Shown one piece after another: positions 2,307 through 18,643 of a DNA stretch of 64,000 nucleotides. The notes beneath the pieces were generated by a model. It was given only the letters and a program-made list of their open reading frames with translations. It was not told where the DNA came from and did no database searches. The position numbers were made by a program, and so were the translations under genes. Numbering within the stretch: position 1 is the first letter of the stretch; each line of letters starts with the position of its first letter. Location: NCBI RefSeq assembly GCF_024345415.1, contig NZ_JAGQBB010000001.1, positions 248,001-312,000 on the forward strand, read 5' to 3'. The stretch is from Synechococcus sp. Tobar12-5m-g (lineage in GTDB: Bacteria > Cyanobacteriota > Cyanobacteriia > PCC-6307 > Cyanobiaceae).

Positions 2307-2741
2307 GGCTCAATACTCGGTGAAGCTGCATTGAACCTTAGGCGAGCAACGGTCCCAGAACTCCAGGAGGGAATGACCCCGAGGGGGCCGTTGTCGGTGT
2401 GATACGAATGCGCTCCAACGGCCTGCAGAACTGGCTTAGGACATTGAGCCAGCCCACGACGACTTCCACCAAAAGAGAAACTGATTGAAACTGATTCATT
2501 CGCCCTGACAATGATCGGAGATCATCACATCGCAAAGACCAATGGCGAGTGCCAGGGCGAGGCAAACGAAGTCCGGACCTCAGAGCTCGATGCCCTCAAA
2601 GCAGCCTGGCGGCTGTGGGCAGATGATGGACCACGGGGTTTTGACGGGTTGTGAACCCATAGCATCCCGCGTTGACGCCGGCCGACCTTGATGCACCCGC
2701 TCCTGGGTGTCTGCTCAGGGCGATCGAGGTGCAACACGCTC
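2307..2741. other. Intergenic region at the edge of the glycan cluster
   Basis: 435 bases separating the A+T-richer glycan genes from the G+C-rich acyltransferase block. The only coding-like element I see is a 47-codon frame at 2511-2654, listed separately. No tRNA, repeat or insertion-sequence end is visible. Confidence 0.45.
2511..2654 (+). CDS. Possible small protein, 47 aa, unrecognised
   Basis: ATG 2511 to TGA 2654. The C-terminal half (ELDALKAAWRLWADDGPRG) reads like an amphipathic helix followed by a turn and looks protein-like, and its codons end mostly in G or C as in real genes here. No Shine-Dalgarno sequence precedes the ATG and I do not recognise a family. It could be a genuine small protein or the 3' remnant of a decayed gene. 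It stands alone, between two leftward genes. Confidence 0.3.
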   Translation: MIGDHHIAKTNGECQGEANEVRTSELDALKAAWRLWADDGPRGFDGL

Positions 2742-4118
2742 CTAAGACTGCGACTCTCCAGCGTGGAGCCCCTCCTCAAGGTTGTGGAGCAGGTCAGCGG
2801 TGAGCCGGTCGACAGCGGACCTCCGGCGGTGCGCGTACTCCTCGGTGCGGCGATCCACGCCGATCGGCTCACCGACACGGATGCGCACCGTCCACGGGCC
2901 AAGAGCCGGCGGACGCTCATCGTCGCGGCCGCGGATCCAGGCGATCGCCCGCCAGAGAATCATCAGCACCTCACCATAGCGATCAAGGCTCGGCTTCTCG
3001 GCCACGTAGGAGCCGCTGACGGTGGCAAGGTACTCCACCAGCCGCATGTGCTCCATGTGGCTTCCGGCCACTGCCGCCCTCCAGTCGGCCAGGCTGCGCT
3101 CCACTGCCGAGCTCCCCTCGAGGTCGTCGCGGTAAATACAGTGCCAGCCGGCCTGCTCGATGCGGCGGCAGCGTTCGCTAATCGTTCCGCGAGGGAGCAG
3201 GTTGAAGTGGGATTCCGCAACGGCCAAGGCCGATTCACGCAGTCGTTCGAGGCGTTCTGTGAAGTCACCTGGGGCTGGGGATGGTCCACCAGTCTCCAGC
3301 GCCTGGCCGTACGTTTGTCGATAGAACGTTTCCAGTTGCACGAGCAGGCCCTCGGCCAACTTGAGCAACCGGACATAGCGGCGATCGGCCGGATTGGAAG
3401 GCGAAGGATCTGGAGCGTTAGGCAGCCCCAGGAGGGCCTCCAGGTCCATGATTAGCTGATTGATCGGCGCCCAGTCGTTACTGAGGGAGACATACTGCAG
3501 CACGACCGGCACGATCAGCACCCTCTCGCTACGCCCTTCGGCGGCGAGATCCTCACAGCCCCAGAACGCCATCTGGGCCAGGCCGGGCTCAAGGGGACCG
3601 AGTAGTTCGTTGTGGTTGTTGGTGGCGCCCTCCGGGGCGATCGCCAAAGGGAAGGGGCCTTTTGCAAGGAGGTGGCGGGCCGCCTTCAGGGCCCGGCGAT
3701 CCAGCTTGCCCCGCTGGATCGGGATCCCCCCCAGCCTGGCGAGCATCCAGCCGGCGGCGGCGCCGGCCCAGAGGGGGATGCCGCGATCATAGAGGAACTG
3801 GCTGTGCACCGGGCCCGCCAGGCGGATGCCGTGGCGGCGGGCCGCCCGAGGCACCTCCTTCCAGATCAACTGGGCCATCACCAGGGGGTCAGCGGTGCTG
3901 GGATGGCGGAAGGCGATCAGCAGGCGAACCTGTCCGGCCTGGGCCGCGGCAAACAGCTCCGCCAGCCGCGCTGCTCCGCTGACCTCACAGCGGACGATGC
4001 CCCGCGACGCCAGCACGGCCGGCAGGGCCAGCCGGCAGAGGCGATGCAACCAGGGCGTGTAGGCGGGAGGGATGAAATCCAGCGCGGGCTGGGCGGCCTG
4101 GACCTTGGCTCGTGGCAT
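2742..4118 (-). CDS. 1-acyl-sn-glycerol-3-phosphate acyltransferase family protein (PlsC domain)
   Basis: 458 residues. A PlsC-type acyltransferase core sits in the first 260 residues: the catalytic HxxxxD box is FRHPSTAD, followed by GGIPIQRGKLDRRALKAA and the phosphate-binding EGATNNHN. Such enzymes transfer an acyl chain to lysophosphatidic acid or a related lipid at the membrane. The protein is about twice the length of minimal PlsC; its C-terminal 200 residues are helical and conserved in cyanobacterial homologues (family knowledge, not checked here). ATG 4118 is chosen because the cupin gene upstream ends at 4124, five bases away, and residues before this ATG in the longer open frame look non-coding. 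It probably forms an operon with the cupin and superoxide dismutase genes. The precise lipid substrate is unknown. Confidence 0.85.
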   Translation of the reverse strand: MPRAKVQAAQPALDFIPPAYTPWLHRLCRLALPAVLASRGIVRCEVSGAARLAELFAAAQAGQVRLLIAFRHPSTADPLVMAQLIWKEVPRAARRHGIRLAGPVHSQFLYDRGIPLWAGAAAGWMLARLGGIPIQRGKLDRRALKAARHLLAKGPFPLAIAPEGATNNHNELLGPLEPGLAQMAFWGCEDLAAEGRSERVLIVPVVLQYVSLSNDWAPINQLIMDLEALLGLPNAPDPSPSNPADRRYVRLLKLAEGLLVQLETFYRQTYGQALETGGPSPAPGDFTERLERLRESALAVAESHFNLLPRGTISERCRRIEQAGWHCIYRDDLEGSSAVERSLADWRAAVAGSHMEHMRLVEYLATVSGSYVAEKPSLDRYGEVLMILWRAIAWIRGRDDERPPALGPWTVRIRVGEPIGVDRRTEEYAHRRRSAVDRLTADLLHNLEEGLHAGESQS

Positions 4119-14552: not shown

Positions 14553-15370
14553 GCCGCCTGGTCCTCCGCTGCTGCCTGCTGCTGGGTTACGGGCTGCTGT
14601 TCGCGCCGATCGCGGTGATCGTGCTGTTCAGCTTCAACGACCCGGCCGGACGCTTCAACCTGGTCTGGCGGCAACCCACCGCAGCCAACTGGTTGGACCC
14701 GCTGAGCGATCCCGGCCTCACCGGGGCGTTCATCACAAGCCTACTGCTGGCCCTGGCAGCGAGTGCCGTCGCCACCGTGCTGGGCAGCCTGATGGCCTAC
14801 GCCCTGGTCCGCTACCGCTGCCGGGGGGAGCGCGTCGTGAACCTCCTCCTGGTGCTCCTGCTCACCACGCCGGAGGTGGTGATGGGGGTGTCCCTGCTCA
14901 ATCTGTTTGTGCAACTGGGCGTGCAACGGGGGCTGGGGACCCTGCTGGTGTCCCACAGCCTGTTCTGCCTCAGTTTCGTGGCGCTCACCGTGAAGGCGAG
15001 GCTGGGCGGGATCGACTGGAACCTCGAAGATGCCGCCATGGACCTGGGCGCCCGGCCAGGCCGGGTGTTCCGGCTCATCACCCTGCCGCGGATCCTGCCG
15101 GGGGTATTGGCCGCGGCCCTGCTCTCCTTCTCCCTCTCCCTCGACGACGTGATCGTCAGCAGCTTCACCGCCGGGGAAGCCGTCACCTTTCCGCTCTACA
15201 TCGCAGGCGCCTTCCAGCGGGAGATCTCTCCCCAGATCCATGTCCTGGCCACCATGGTGCTGGTGGCCAGTGTGGCGATGCTCGCGGCGGGGTCGCTGCG
15301 GCAGCTGGGCGTCAGCTCCCGGTTCCGAGCTCCCGCTTCATTCGCTCGAGGGTCTGGTTCATCTGGCTGA
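14549..15370 (+). CDS. potC: ABC transporter permease, PotC-like
   Basis: 273 residues, an integral membrane protein with about six segments. The EAA motif is LEDAAMDLGARPGRVFRLIT. The ATG overlaps the potB stop (ATGA). The last 20 residues (after SSRFRAP) are serine/glycine-rich and overlap the 3' end of the convergent DUF1825 gene by 59 bases; homologues may end sooner. Confidence 0.9.
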   Translation: MSRLVLRCCLLLGYGLLFAPIAVIVLFSFNDPAGRFNLVWRQPTAANWLDPLSDPGLTGAFITSLLLALAASAVATVLGSLMAYALVRYRCRGERVVNLLLVLLLTTPEVVMGVSLLNLFVQLGVQRGLGTLLVSHSLFCLSFVALTVKARLGGIDWNLEDAAMDLGARPGRVFRLITLPRILPGVLAAALLSFSLSLDDVIVSSFTAGEAVTFPLYIAGAFQREISPQIHVLATMVLVASVAMLAAGSLRQLGVSSRFRAPASFARGSGSSG

Positions 15371-15635
15371 ACATCTGCTCCGGCGTCATGCCGAACTGGC
15401 CGAGCTGGGTGCGCAACTGCTCAACGGTGAGCTTGGCCTGGAAATCCTCGGAGAGCTCGAAGCGCTTCATGAACACCCGGTAGCGGTCCATCAGCTCCTC
15501 CATCCGCTCGATGAACAGCTTCTTGCCTTCCCGATCGAACTTGCCGTAGTCGCCGCCGAGCTGGGTGAGCTGCTGGTAATCGCCGAACAGCCGCTTGGCT
15601 TCGTCCTGAACGATTTCGGATTCGAAGAATCCCAT
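15312..15635 (-). CDS. DUF1825 family protein
   Basis: 107 residues, all-helical and highly charged, starting MGFFESEIVQDEAKRLFGDY. The segment FDREGKKLFIERMEELMDRY and the tail FGMTPEQMFSQMNQTLERMK are hallmarks of this cyanobacteria-specific family of unknown function. No signal peptide or membrane segment. It is convergent with potC, with overlapping coding ends. Confidence 0.9.
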   Translation of the reverse strand: MGFFESEIVQDEAKRLFGDYQQLTQLGGDYGKFDREGKKLFIERMEELMDRYRVFMKRFELSEDFQAKLTVEQLRTQLGQFGMTPEQMFSQMNQTLERMKRELGTGS

Positions 15636-15767: not shown

Positions 15768-16460
15768 ATGGCCAAGGGGCACTGGCTGGATCCCCTGGCT
15801 CGCCGCCTGCTGGTCGCCACCGGCCAGCTGCCGGCGGCGCCAAGGCGTTCGGCTCCAGGTCAATCCAGCTCCGGCGACACCGGTGAGAGCGCCGAGGCGA
15901 TCGAGAGGGAGCTGCTGGCCCTGAAGCTGGCAGGCAATCCGGCCCTGCGCCTGCGCAACGCCGAGGAGGTGCGTCAACTGGCGACCCTCGGCTGGCGCCT
16001 CGATGTGAACCGGGCAACGGCGGCCGACTGGCTGCGCCTGCCTGGCTGCACCCCCAGCCAGGTGGACCTGCTGCTGCGCCTGCAGGCCGGCGGCGTGCAA
16101 CTCAGCGGCCCCGACGATCTGCAACGGCTGCTGGCGCTGGCCGACGACCAGGTCCGCTGCTGGCAGCCCCTGCTCGCCTTCCGCTGGTACGGCGATCCTG
16201 TCGCTCCCAGCCCGGCCCCGGTCGACCTGAACCGAAGCAGCGCGGATCAGCTGCAGGGCCGCCTGCCCCTCGATGCCGAGCGCTGCCGGCGCCTGGTGCG
16301 CGAGCGCGGCCGCGGCCCCTTCCAGGATCTGGCCGACCTGCAGCACCGGCTGGGTCTCCCCGCCGACCTGATCGAGGCCCTGATCGGCAAGGTGAGCTTC
16401 GGCAAGGGGCCGGTGGGGCCGGATCTGCCGCGGCCCAGCCAACCCCCACCGTCGTGGTGA
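15768..16460 (+). CDS. Helix-hairpin-helix (ComEA-like) protein without export signal
   Basis: 230 residues from ATG 15768. Two helix-hairpin-helix units are visible: VNRATAADWLRLPGCTPSQ (about residues 80-100) and VDLNRSSADQL with ERGRGPFQDLADLQHRLGL (about 155-210), matching the ComEA repeat, which binds DNA backbone non-specifically. Unlike true ComEA there is no N-terminal membrane anchor, so a cytoplasmic DNA-binding role is likely. The stop overlaps the start of the GIY-YIG gene by seven bases, so the two are probably co-translated. The specific function is unknown. Confidence 0.78.
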   Translation: MAKGHWLDPLARRLLVATGQLPAAPRRSAPGQSSSGDTGESAEAIERELLALKLAGNPALRLRNAEEVRQLATLGWRLDVNRATAADWLRLPGCTPSQVDLLLRLQAGGVQLSGPDDLQRLLALADDQVRCWQPLLAFRWYGDPVAPSPAPVDLNRSSADQLQGRLPLDAERCRRLVRERGRGPFQDLADLQHRLGLPADLIEALIGKVSFGKGPVGPDLPRPSQPPPSW

Positions 16461-17101
16461 CGATGGGGGTTGGCCGGCAGGGGGAACTGTTCGCTGCTGG
16501 GGCTGAATCCTGCTCGAGCTCTGGAGCTGGCGCGCTGCCGCTGAGGCGGCACCAGGTGCTGGCCTGGCAAATCCGGCTGGCTGAAGTCCAGCAGTCGCTC
16601 TTCGAAGCGGCAGGGTCACTCTCCGTGCCGGGCCCCTCTCCAGGGCTTGAGCAAGGAAACCTGTTCTCGCCCCAGCCACCCAGCCAGCCGCCAGACCCCG
16701 CGGCCCTGGCCGCCCGGCTCAACCCCCTCGCCTTCGCACCCCAGAGCCTGCAGTTCTGGCGCTGGCCCCAGCCGCCCCAGGCGGGAGCGGCGCTGTACCT
16801 GGTGATCGATCAGCCGCCCCACCTGGTCAGTCCCCTGCTGCTGTATGTGGGGGAAACCGGCCGGGCCGACCAGCGCTGGAAGGGCGAGCACGACTGCAAG
16901 GCCTACCTGGCGGCCTACGCCGAAGCCGTGCTCCAGGCCGGCTTCACCACCCGCCTCAGCATCCGCTTCTGCTGCGATGTGCCGGAGGCGGCCCGGCCAC
17001 GTCGTGCCCTGGAGCAAGCCCTGATCCGCCGTTGGCTGCCGCCGTTCAACAAGGAAACCCGCCGGCGCTGGGCCACCCCCTTCACCGCCGATCCGGCCTG
17101 A
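16454..17101 (+). CDS. GIY-YIG-like nuclease-domain protein
   Basis: 215 residues from GTG 16454 (ATG 16463 also possible). The C-terminal half carries a GIY-YIG-like fold: ALYLVID and LLLYVGETG replace the GIY and YIG strands, RWKGEHDCKAY holds the catalytic Arg, and the closing ALEQALIRRWLPPFNKET supplies the Glu and Asn expected of the family. The N-terminal 100 residues are proline- and glutamine-rich and unrecognised. GIY-YIG proteins nick or cut DNA. The overlap with an HhH DNA-binding gene suggests a joint DNA-processing role (inference). Confidence 0.72.
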   Translation: MVTMGVGRQGELFAAGAESCSSSGAGALPLRRHQVLAWQIRLAEVQQSLFEAAGSLSVPGPSPGLEQGNLFSPQPPSQPPDPAALAARLNPLAFAPQSLQFWRWPQPPQAGAALYLVIDQPPHLVSPLLLYVGETGRADQRWKGEHDCKAYLAAYAEAVLQAGFTTRLSIRFCCDVPEAARPRRALEQALIRRWLPPFNKETRRRWATPFTADPA

Positions 17102-17161: not shown

Positions 17162-18643
17162 ATGGAATTCCGCTGCACGCCCGCCACCCTGAGCGACTGG
17201 GGCGGCGACACCCTGGCCGTGGGGCTGTTCGAGGGCGACCAGGGGGAAGCGCGGCAGGCGCTGGAGGCCAGGTTCGGTGCCGGGCTCCCGCGGCTTATGG
17301 AGCAACGCGGCTTCAAGGGGAAACCGGGCGAAACCCTCAGCCTCTCCCTGCTGGATCACTCCCCGGCTGACCTGATCCTGGTGGGGCTGGGCGACGCCGC
17401 CAGCTTTGACGCCGCAGCCCTGCGCAGTGCAGCGTCGAGCATTGCCAAGGCCGCCGCCGCCGGCAAGGCCACCGATCTGGCCATCGCCTTGCCGAACCAG
17501 GGCCTCGAGCCTGCCTTCGCCGCCGGGGCGATCGCCGAGGCAGTTCGTCTGGCCCTCTACGCCGATCAGCGCTTCAAAAGCGAAGCCGAGCCGAAGGAGC
17601 TGCCTCAGACCATCACCCTGCTGGGACTGACGGAGGCGGCGGTCGCCGGCCTCGATGCGTTGGAGGCCACCTGCAGCGGCGTGGAGCTGGCCCGCCAGCT
17701 GGTGGCAGCACCCCCCAATGTGGTGACTCCTGAGGCCCTGGCCGAAGCGGCCGCCGCCATCGCCCGACAGTTCGGCCTGGAGCTCAAGGTGCTGGAGCGC
17801 GCCGACTGCGAGGCCCTCGGCATGGGGGCCTATCTGGGCGTCGCCCAGGGCTCCTCCCTGCCGCCCAAGTTCATCCACCTCACCTACCGCCCCGCCGCCG
17901 GGGCCAGGCGCCGTCTGGTGCTGATCGGCAAGGGGGTCACCTTCGATTCCGGCGGCTACAACCTCAAAACCGCCGGCTCCCAGATCGAGATGATGAAGTA
18001 CGACATGGGCGGCAGCGCGGCGGTGCTCGGTGCCGCCCGCGCCATCGCCGAGCTGAAACCCCCGGGGGTGGAGGTGCATGTGATCGTGGCCGCCTGCGAA
18101 AACATGATCAGCGGCAACGCCATCCACCCCGGCGACATCCTCACCGCCTCCAACGGCAAGACGATCGAGATCAACAACACCGACGCCGAAGGTCGCCTCA
18201 CCCTGGCCGATGCCCTGGTGTACGCCTGCCGCCTCGAACCCGATGCGGTGGTCGATCTGGCCACCCTGACCGGCGCCTGCGTGATCGCCCTGGGCGAGGA
18301 GATCGCCGGATTGTGGTCCCCCAGCGACGGCCTGGCGACGGCCCTGCTGGAGGCGGGCCGGCAGGGAGGTGAGCAGTTCTGGCGGATGCCCCTGCAGGCC
18401 TCCTACAAGGAGGGGATCAAAAGCCCGGTGGCCGACCTGAAGAACACCGGCCCCAGGCCCGGTGGCGCGATCACCGCAGCCCTCTTCCTGCAGGACTTCG
18501 TCGAGCCGAAGACGGCCTGGGCCCACCTTGACATTGCGGGCACCGTCTGGAGCGAAAAGGGTCGGGGGGTGGATCCGGCTGGGGCCACCGGCTTCGGGGT
18601 GCGCACCCTGGTGCGTTGGATCACCCAGGGTGGAGAGGCCTAG
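17162..18643 (+). CDS. pepA: Leucyl aminopeptidase (M17)
   Basis: 493 residues, normal for the family. It removes N-terminal residues from peptides in the cytoplasm using two metal ions. The C-terminal catalytic domain shows LIGKGVTFDSGGYNLK (metal ligands and catalytic Lys), MKYDMGGSAAVLG and the M17 signature NTDAEGRLTLADAL. The N-terminal domain is the usual macro-like fold. ATG 17162. Confidence 0.95.
   Translation: MEFRCTPATLSDWGGDTLAVGLFEGDQGEARQALEARFGAGLPRLMEQRGFKGKPGETLSLSLLDHSPADLILVGLGDAASFDAAALRSAASSIAKAAAAGKATDLAIALPNQGLEPAFAAGAIAEAVRLALYADQRFKSEAEPKELPQTITLLGLTEAAVAGLDALEATCSGVELARQLVAAPPNVVTPEALAEAAAAIARQFGLELKVLERADCEALGMGAYLGVAQGSSLPPKFIHLTYRPAAGARRRLVLIGKGVTFDSGGYNLKTAGSQIEMMKYDMGGSAAVLGAARAIAELKPPGVEVHVIVAACENMISGNAIHPGDILTASNGKTIEINNTDAEGRLTLADALVYACRLEPDAVVDLATLTGACVIALGEEIAGLWSPSDGLATALLEAGRQGGEQFWRMPLQASYKEGIKSPVADLKNTGPRPGGAITAALFLQDFVEPKTAWAHLDIAGTVWSEKGRGVDPAGATGFGVRTLVRWITQGGEA

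Follow-up and report, generated by a model that had tools for sequence, protein, structure and literature searches.

A divergent GIY-YIG-like protein of cyanobacteria with two predicted sliding-clamp binding motifs, and its local association with a double helix-hairpin-helix protein

Within the window, that is the whole 64,000-nucleotide stretch of Synechococcus sp. Tobar12-5m-g DNA analysed here, an ORF check of the sequence recovered both of the genes reported in an initial annotation. The first encodes a 230 aa helix-hairpin-helix (HhH) protein carrying an HHH_3 match (15768..16460, + strand; ATG 15768, stop 16460), and the second a GIY-YIG-like protein, hereafter the putative nuclease, of 215 aa if read from GTG 16454 (16454..17101, + strand), which was assigned by family alignment, model, profile and structural comparison. 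They are flanked by a DUF1825 gene, the divergent neighbour of the HhH gene (15312..15635, - strand; PF08855, E 7.3e-52), and by a leucyl aminopeptidase gene (17162..18643, + strand; NF002076, E 1.7e-229), and the closest named matches to the window are mostly from Synechococcus and Cyanobium genomes. The HhH start at ATG 15768 is backed by a conserved N-terminus, H-W-L-D-P-L-A-R in own-family relatives. The seven-base overlap (16454-16460) that had been reported between the two genes holds only if the nuclease starts at GTG 16454. An in-frame ATG at 16463 gives MGVGRQGELF and, since relatives begin in this way (MGRQGELF, MARQGDLF), is probably the better start, in which case the genes no longer overlap. 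Among the 80 named loci closest to the window, 78 have a nuclease match that begins somewhere from 10 bases ahead of the HhH stop to 143 bases past it; the remaining two say nothing about overlap (L143 lies at a contig edge and L108 contains an ambiguous base). An apparent HhH-nuclease fusion in L108, a single open frame, was discounted because the ambiguous base (X) is near the junction.

The HhH protein contains two HhH domains of the ComEA/PsbU type, at about residues 75-138 and 149-212. HHH_3 matched residues 151-209 of the window protein with 25.2 bits (E 1.8e-5), just below the cut-off of 27, and was found in every one of the 30 sequences of a diverse family alignment (E up to 1). A PDB profile search retrieved EEPD1, ComEA, PsbU and other HhH proteins, and the C-terminal domain of the predicted structure (pLDDT 88.7) aligned with ComEA (8dss_B) over 64 residues with Z 10.3 and rmsd 1.6, in agreement with the ComEA-like identity first proposed. 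A Foldseek search with the same model gave no match at E 0.001 or better. The protein had also been described as having no membrane anchor, and a crude hydropathy scan bears this out, with a 19-residue maximum of 0.86 and neither an anchor nor an export signal evident; by the same kind of scan the putative nuclease likewise has no hydrophobic anchor. We regard the HhH protein as an independently conserved double-HhH protein that probably binds DNA.

The GIY-YIG family is defined by a tyrosine at the GIY position, a Y-x-G, and a catalytic arginine, glutamate and asparagine, in that order. Taken alone, the window protein scores below the PF01541 cut-off (12.7 bits against 22.6; E 0.16), and at the family level 29 of 30 sequences hit the profile with E no higher than 1 (best 5.8e-6). 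Across 30 diverse sequences from many cyanobacterial families Y115, Y131, G133, R141, E187 and N199 are invariant, as are the R, W, H, D, C and K of an R-W-x-x-x-H-D-C-K stretch, so that the catalytic Arg, Glu and Asn noted in the initial annotation are kept throughout the alignment. In the model (pLDDT 80.8; topology strand-strand-helix-strand-helix) the two predicted catalytic strands, 113-119 and 128-135, carry Y115 at the GIY position and Y131-V-G133 at the YIG position (16796..16852, + strand). These are followed by R141 and H146 of R-W-x-x-x-H-D-C-K (16874..16891, + strand), then by E187 in the last helix and N199 within PFNKE (17012..17050, + strand). Foldseek returned no significant structural match for this model (best E 1.6) and the nuclease profile, run against PDB sequences, gave nothing at E up to 1. 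A second structural comparison placed T4 EndoII first (Z 5.8, rmsd 3.2, 102 residues aligned), followed by two PD-T4-3 entries (Z 4.6 and 4.5) and the N-terminal domain of a plant Grx (4.5), before falling to Z 3.2 at the fifth row; a Z of 5.8 can reflect a common arrangement, and the top four rows are what we take to be GIY-YIG proteins. From sequence and model together the evidence for a divergent GIY-YIG fold is good but not absolute, and the C-terminal half of the protein (residues about 90-212) would form the catalytic domain, with its active site intact.

Distribution was assessed in a class sample of 195 genomes at least 90% complete, of which 23 belong to the window's own family (f1), two to a second family (f11) and 170 to other families. 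Only strong matches were kept (the nuclease in 130 of the 137 genomes with any match, the HhH protein in 124 of 159), the others being weak; some of the dropped HhH matches lie in 545-600 aa frames resembling a protein with phospholipase D (PLD)-like and HhH domains. A denser sample comprised 35 of 61 own-family genomes (completeness 90% or more), and 34 of these nearly complete genomes encode the nuclease, including small ones in which it has no HhH neighbour. The single missing case (G016) is uninformative because its contig ends there, at the HhH gene. Such retention within the family argues that the protein must do something useful, and its absence, as judged by strong matches, from 65 of the 170 genomes outside f1 and f11 indicates that some cyanobacteria can do without it.

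A sample of 117 genomes taken across the phylum gave 26 nuclease matches, all within the same class, and none of 23 pattern matches on viral contigs was confirmed as a relative, which speaks for a chromosomal gene passed on vertically rather than a homing or phage enzyme. Outside f1 no gene recurred beside it in three or more of 16 loci. The presence of PD-T4-3, a restriction endonuclease, among the structural neighbours, together with an R-x4-H spacing that resembles that of GIY-YIG restriction enzymes, could be taken to indicate restriction or defence. However, every f1 genome that has the nuclease has one match only, the gene is syntenic beside the DUF1825 and aminopeptidase genes, no methyltransferase was recognised by eye among the flanking ORFs and the viral contigs yielded no confirmed relative, and we consider such a role very unlikely.

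The adjacency of the two genes had been taken to indicate tight coupling, with the HhH and GIY-YIG proteins forming one two-part machine in which the DNA binder delivers a nicking nuclease, and near the window the arrangement is indeed consistent. In the f1 genomes of the class sample the nuclease is present in 23 of 23 and the HhH gene in 11, in all 11 of which the two are adjacent on the same strand; the HhH gene immediately precedes the nuclease in 78 of the 80 nearest named loci (a sample biased to near relatives), and both f11 genomes hold the two genes 0.5-0.7 kb apart on the same strand. Against this, 12 of the 23 f1 genomes, from five genera, encode the nuclease alone, although these are not independent because seven belong to one genus. 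In the 170 genomes of other families the nuclease was found in 105 and the HhH protein in 111, with both in 70, the nuclease only in 35, the HhH protein only in 41 and neither in 24, a co-occurrence outside f1 and f11 that is random (Fisher p=0.74). None of the 70 genomes holding both has them within 20 kb: in 18 they share a contig at a separation of 24 kb or more, and in 52 they are on different contigs, many of these assemblies being drafts, so a few adjacencies may have gone unseen. The survey of cyanobacteria called for by the initial annotation thus gave the frequent separation in relatives that this annotation had itself named as counter-evidence to the pairing, with adjacency local to f1 and, at 0.5-0.7 kb, f11.

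The same is seen at finer scale, the HhH gene being missing from five of 30 f1 loci, and in these five the order DUF1825, nuclease, aminopeptidase is kept. One of the five (L020) has a LuxR-family gene (523-1360, + strand; GerE, E 6.6e-17) between the DUF1825 and nuclease genes. In a tree of the 26 loci that have all three marker genes, read without branch support, HhH presence changes five times whilst the nuclease stays, changes that we read as apparent scattered losses with the nuclease retained.

Outside f1 and f11 the HhH gene has other company. In 18 of 20 such loci (L078-L097) it is accompanied by a TM2-like ORF, which precedes it in the same orientation or (in L085) is part of a fusion with the HhH domain; the TM2 assignment was profile-checked in L080, where a TM2-type gene with SHOCT lies at 2414-2872 (+ strand), and in L085, where the TM2-HhH fusion spans 3065-3832 (- strand). 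Because TM2 adjoins it so regularly, the HhH gene would have a membrane protein, and not the nuclease, as its older partner, and in those genomes the HhH protein may work at the membrane. A DUF1825 homologue is near the HhH gene in eight of 22 loci outside f1 (one of the eight profile-checked, E 8.3e-50) and a signal-peptidase gene in nine of 22 (examples profile-checked). Since these genes accompany the HhH gene beyond f1, the nuclease would be the later arrival, apparently entering an already established HhH neighbourhood in the lineages of f1 and f11. Distribution, separations, tree and TM2 neighbourhood together led us to reject an obligate HhH-nuclease pair, and a joint machine of the kind first proposed appears highly improbable. 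What looked a tempting operon-based guess is thereby corrected as wrong; the HhH protein would have come to adjoin the nuclease in f1 and f11 without being required for it.

A part for the two proteins in processing incoming DNA had also been suggested, which in its fullest form would make the HhH protein a ComEA-like competence DNA receptor and the nuclease a trimmer of the DNA taken up. ComEA of S. elongatus is among the factors needed for transformation, according to the part of PMC7125226 available to us, which gives no locus tag. The genome studied here encodes ComEC, the HhH protein is its sole HHH_3 match at E up to 0.01 (below the curated cut-off), and the TM2 partner found elsewhere could put an HhH protein at the membrane. 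Of the 23 f1 genomes in the class sample 12 have ComEC; the HhH gene occurs in 11 of these 12 and in none of the 11 without, and on those figures a competence ComEA looked likely. The denser f1 sample weakened that candidate: the association remained (19 of 21 with ComEC, p=0.006), but six of the 14 ComEC-less genomes keep the HhH gene, and a PLD-domain lipoprotein tracks ComEC far better (21 of 21 against one of 14, p=9e-9). In these counts the split ComEC of G051 was scored as present and the short PLD fragments in G028 were left out. Moreover, the crude hydropathy scan showed no export signal in the HhH protein, and the nuclease does not follow ComEC, being present regardless of it. We therefore hold a receptor-and-trimming pair to be quite unlikely; the suggestion survives in weakened form for the HhH protein, which may be linked to competence, and finds no support for the nuclease.

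The PLD-domain protein has a lipobox-like start by eye and occurs in the window's own genome on contig C3 (L196, 578-2053) as well as in L197 and L195. An HhH domain ends some of its cyanobacterial copies, with no HhH match in the copy of this genome or that of an f11 genome (G089). By description only, it fits Synechocystis ComA, slr0197, as portrayed in the accessible part of PMC7690421.

Little of the N-terminal part of the putative nuclease is conserved beyond a helix (residues 32-56) and two QxxLF pentapeptides, each a predicted sliding-clamp binding motif. Motif 1 (QGELF, residues 9-13; 16478..16492, + strand) lies ahead of the helix and motif 2 (QGNLF, residues 67-71; 16652..16666, + strand) beyond it. 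Mean column identity is 0.39 in residues 1-31 and 0.36 in residues 57-90, and the only columns there reaching at least 80% identity are Q9, L12, F13, Q67, L70 and F71; the probability that both segments would, by placement alone, each show three columns of this kind spaced 1-4-5 is about 3e-5 when residue identities are ignored. In the diverse alignment the motif 1 columns hold Q in 29/29, L in 29/29 and F in 26/29 (L in 3/29), those of motif 2 hold Q, L and F in 28/30 each, and column by column in a further alignment (A3) motif 1 has Q in 49/49, L in 48/49 and F in 48/49. Of 155 nuclease sequences 127 are distinct, and among these 123 carry a strict Q-x-x-L-[FL] ahead of the helix and 117 beyond it, in forms that include QGELF, QLSLF, QLNLF, QISLF and QTDLF. 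The exceptions at motif 1 are two QPSFF, one HGDLF and one sequence with an ambiguous base, and the ten at motif 2 include ATDLF/PTDLF (f11), CLPLF (L047), QGSFF, QGSMF and QPSLW. In one small own-family genome of about 1.7 Mb (G020; L206) motif 2 reads QTSLP, motif 1 being kept as QFELF. The window protein contains three QxxLF stretches where 0.08 would be predicted from composition, the third, QQSLF (residues 46-50; 16589-16603), being located within the conserved helix.

The sections of PMC12309361 and PMC4549789 at our disposal describe QxxLF, at its best QL[S/D]LF, as a common bacterial clamp-binding motif, of which positions 1, 4 and 5 are critical and for which each clamp dimer offers two sites (PMC12309361). 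It is because both motifs match this DnaN-binding motif that we infer recruitment of the nuclease by the sliding clamp, even with a Gly at the second position of QGELF that departs from the best consensus. The alternative that the repeats serve not clamp binding but another kind of contact, such as helix packing or self-assembly, draws on the third copy, which recurs at the helix position in 69 of the 127 sequences (Q invariant in 30/30 aligned members, L and F in 12/30 each) and, lying in a conserved helix, suggests that the QxxLF residues may pack. Motifs 1 and 2, however, fit the clamp consensus at positions 1, 4 and 5 and sit in poorly conserved segments of low model confidence, with block mean pLDDT, a proxy for flexibility, of 50, 46 and 55 over residues 1-30, 54 over 61-70 and 77 over 71-80. 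By that proxy the two motifs probably occupy flexible, accessible segments, and we judge a non-clamp function unlikely.

Taken together, we consider it moderately probable that the protein is a clamp-recruited GIY-YIG endonuclease acting in replication-linked repair, with clamp binding and DNA cleavage both predicted from sequence. It would be a stand-alone DNA endonuclease, inherited vertically in cyanobacteria, in which a conserved helix flanked by two flexible segments, each presenting a QxxLF motif, docks on DnaN and so brings the catalytic domain to DNA that has just been copied. Its nicking of this newly made DNA would serve post-replicative repair, such as the removal of mismatches or lesions, the choice of mismatch or lesion repair as the pathway being a guess. 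Clamp-directed incision appears the most likely mechanism. As the dimeric ring has two identical pockets, one nuclease could occupy both or bind tightly by avidity; a more specific version, in which a clamp-tethered nickase makes strand-directed post-replication incisions with one molecule engaging both pockets through its two motifs, is put forward tentatively and is on balance doubtful. If the protein is clamp-bound, the replication fork of picocyanobacteria would have a repair nuclease stationed at it, offering a direct way into the study of replication-error correction in cyanobacteria; strand-directed incision by a tethered nickase, if true, would be a route of mismatch or lesion repair for which we found no paper. 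Among publications retrieved on GIY-YIG in cyanobacteria, the sliding clamp and clamp-binding motifs, none dealt with this nuclease in its title or the opening of its abstract.

The HhH protein shares with ComEA the fold of its C-terminal HhH domain, and differs in having two such domains, in showing no export signal and in an association with ComEC that is not strict. With the PLD-HhH lipoprotein it shares, in some members of the latter, an HHH_3-type HhH domain, whereas PLD-like nuclease domains and a lipobox-like start are features of the lipoprotein only. The putative nuclease has the same catalytic Tyr, Tyr-x-Gly, Arg, Glu and Asn, in the order generally given, as the GIY-YIG superfamily (T4 EndoII, PD-T4-3, the N-terminal domain of plant Grx, UvrC), from which it differs in its divergence and in an N-terminal module of its own, the helix with two QxxLF motifs. 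In the portion of a GIY-YIG survey available to us (PMC1564403) one Synechocystis protein, sll0664, is named among I-TevI relatives, and the words 'cyanobacteria' and 'sliding clamp' do not appear. With bacterial clamp binders such as PolC (QLSLF), DnaE (QMGLF) and transposases the nuclease has the QxxLF form in common, some of its members reading exactly QLSLF, and it is set apart by carrying two conserved copies of the predicted motif N-terminal to the nuclease domain. NucS/EndoMS of actinobacteria is a clamp-recruited repair endonuclease whose nuclease fold differs from GIY-YIG. The cyanobacterial protein would work alike, with a GIY-YIG domain in place of the actinobacterial fold.
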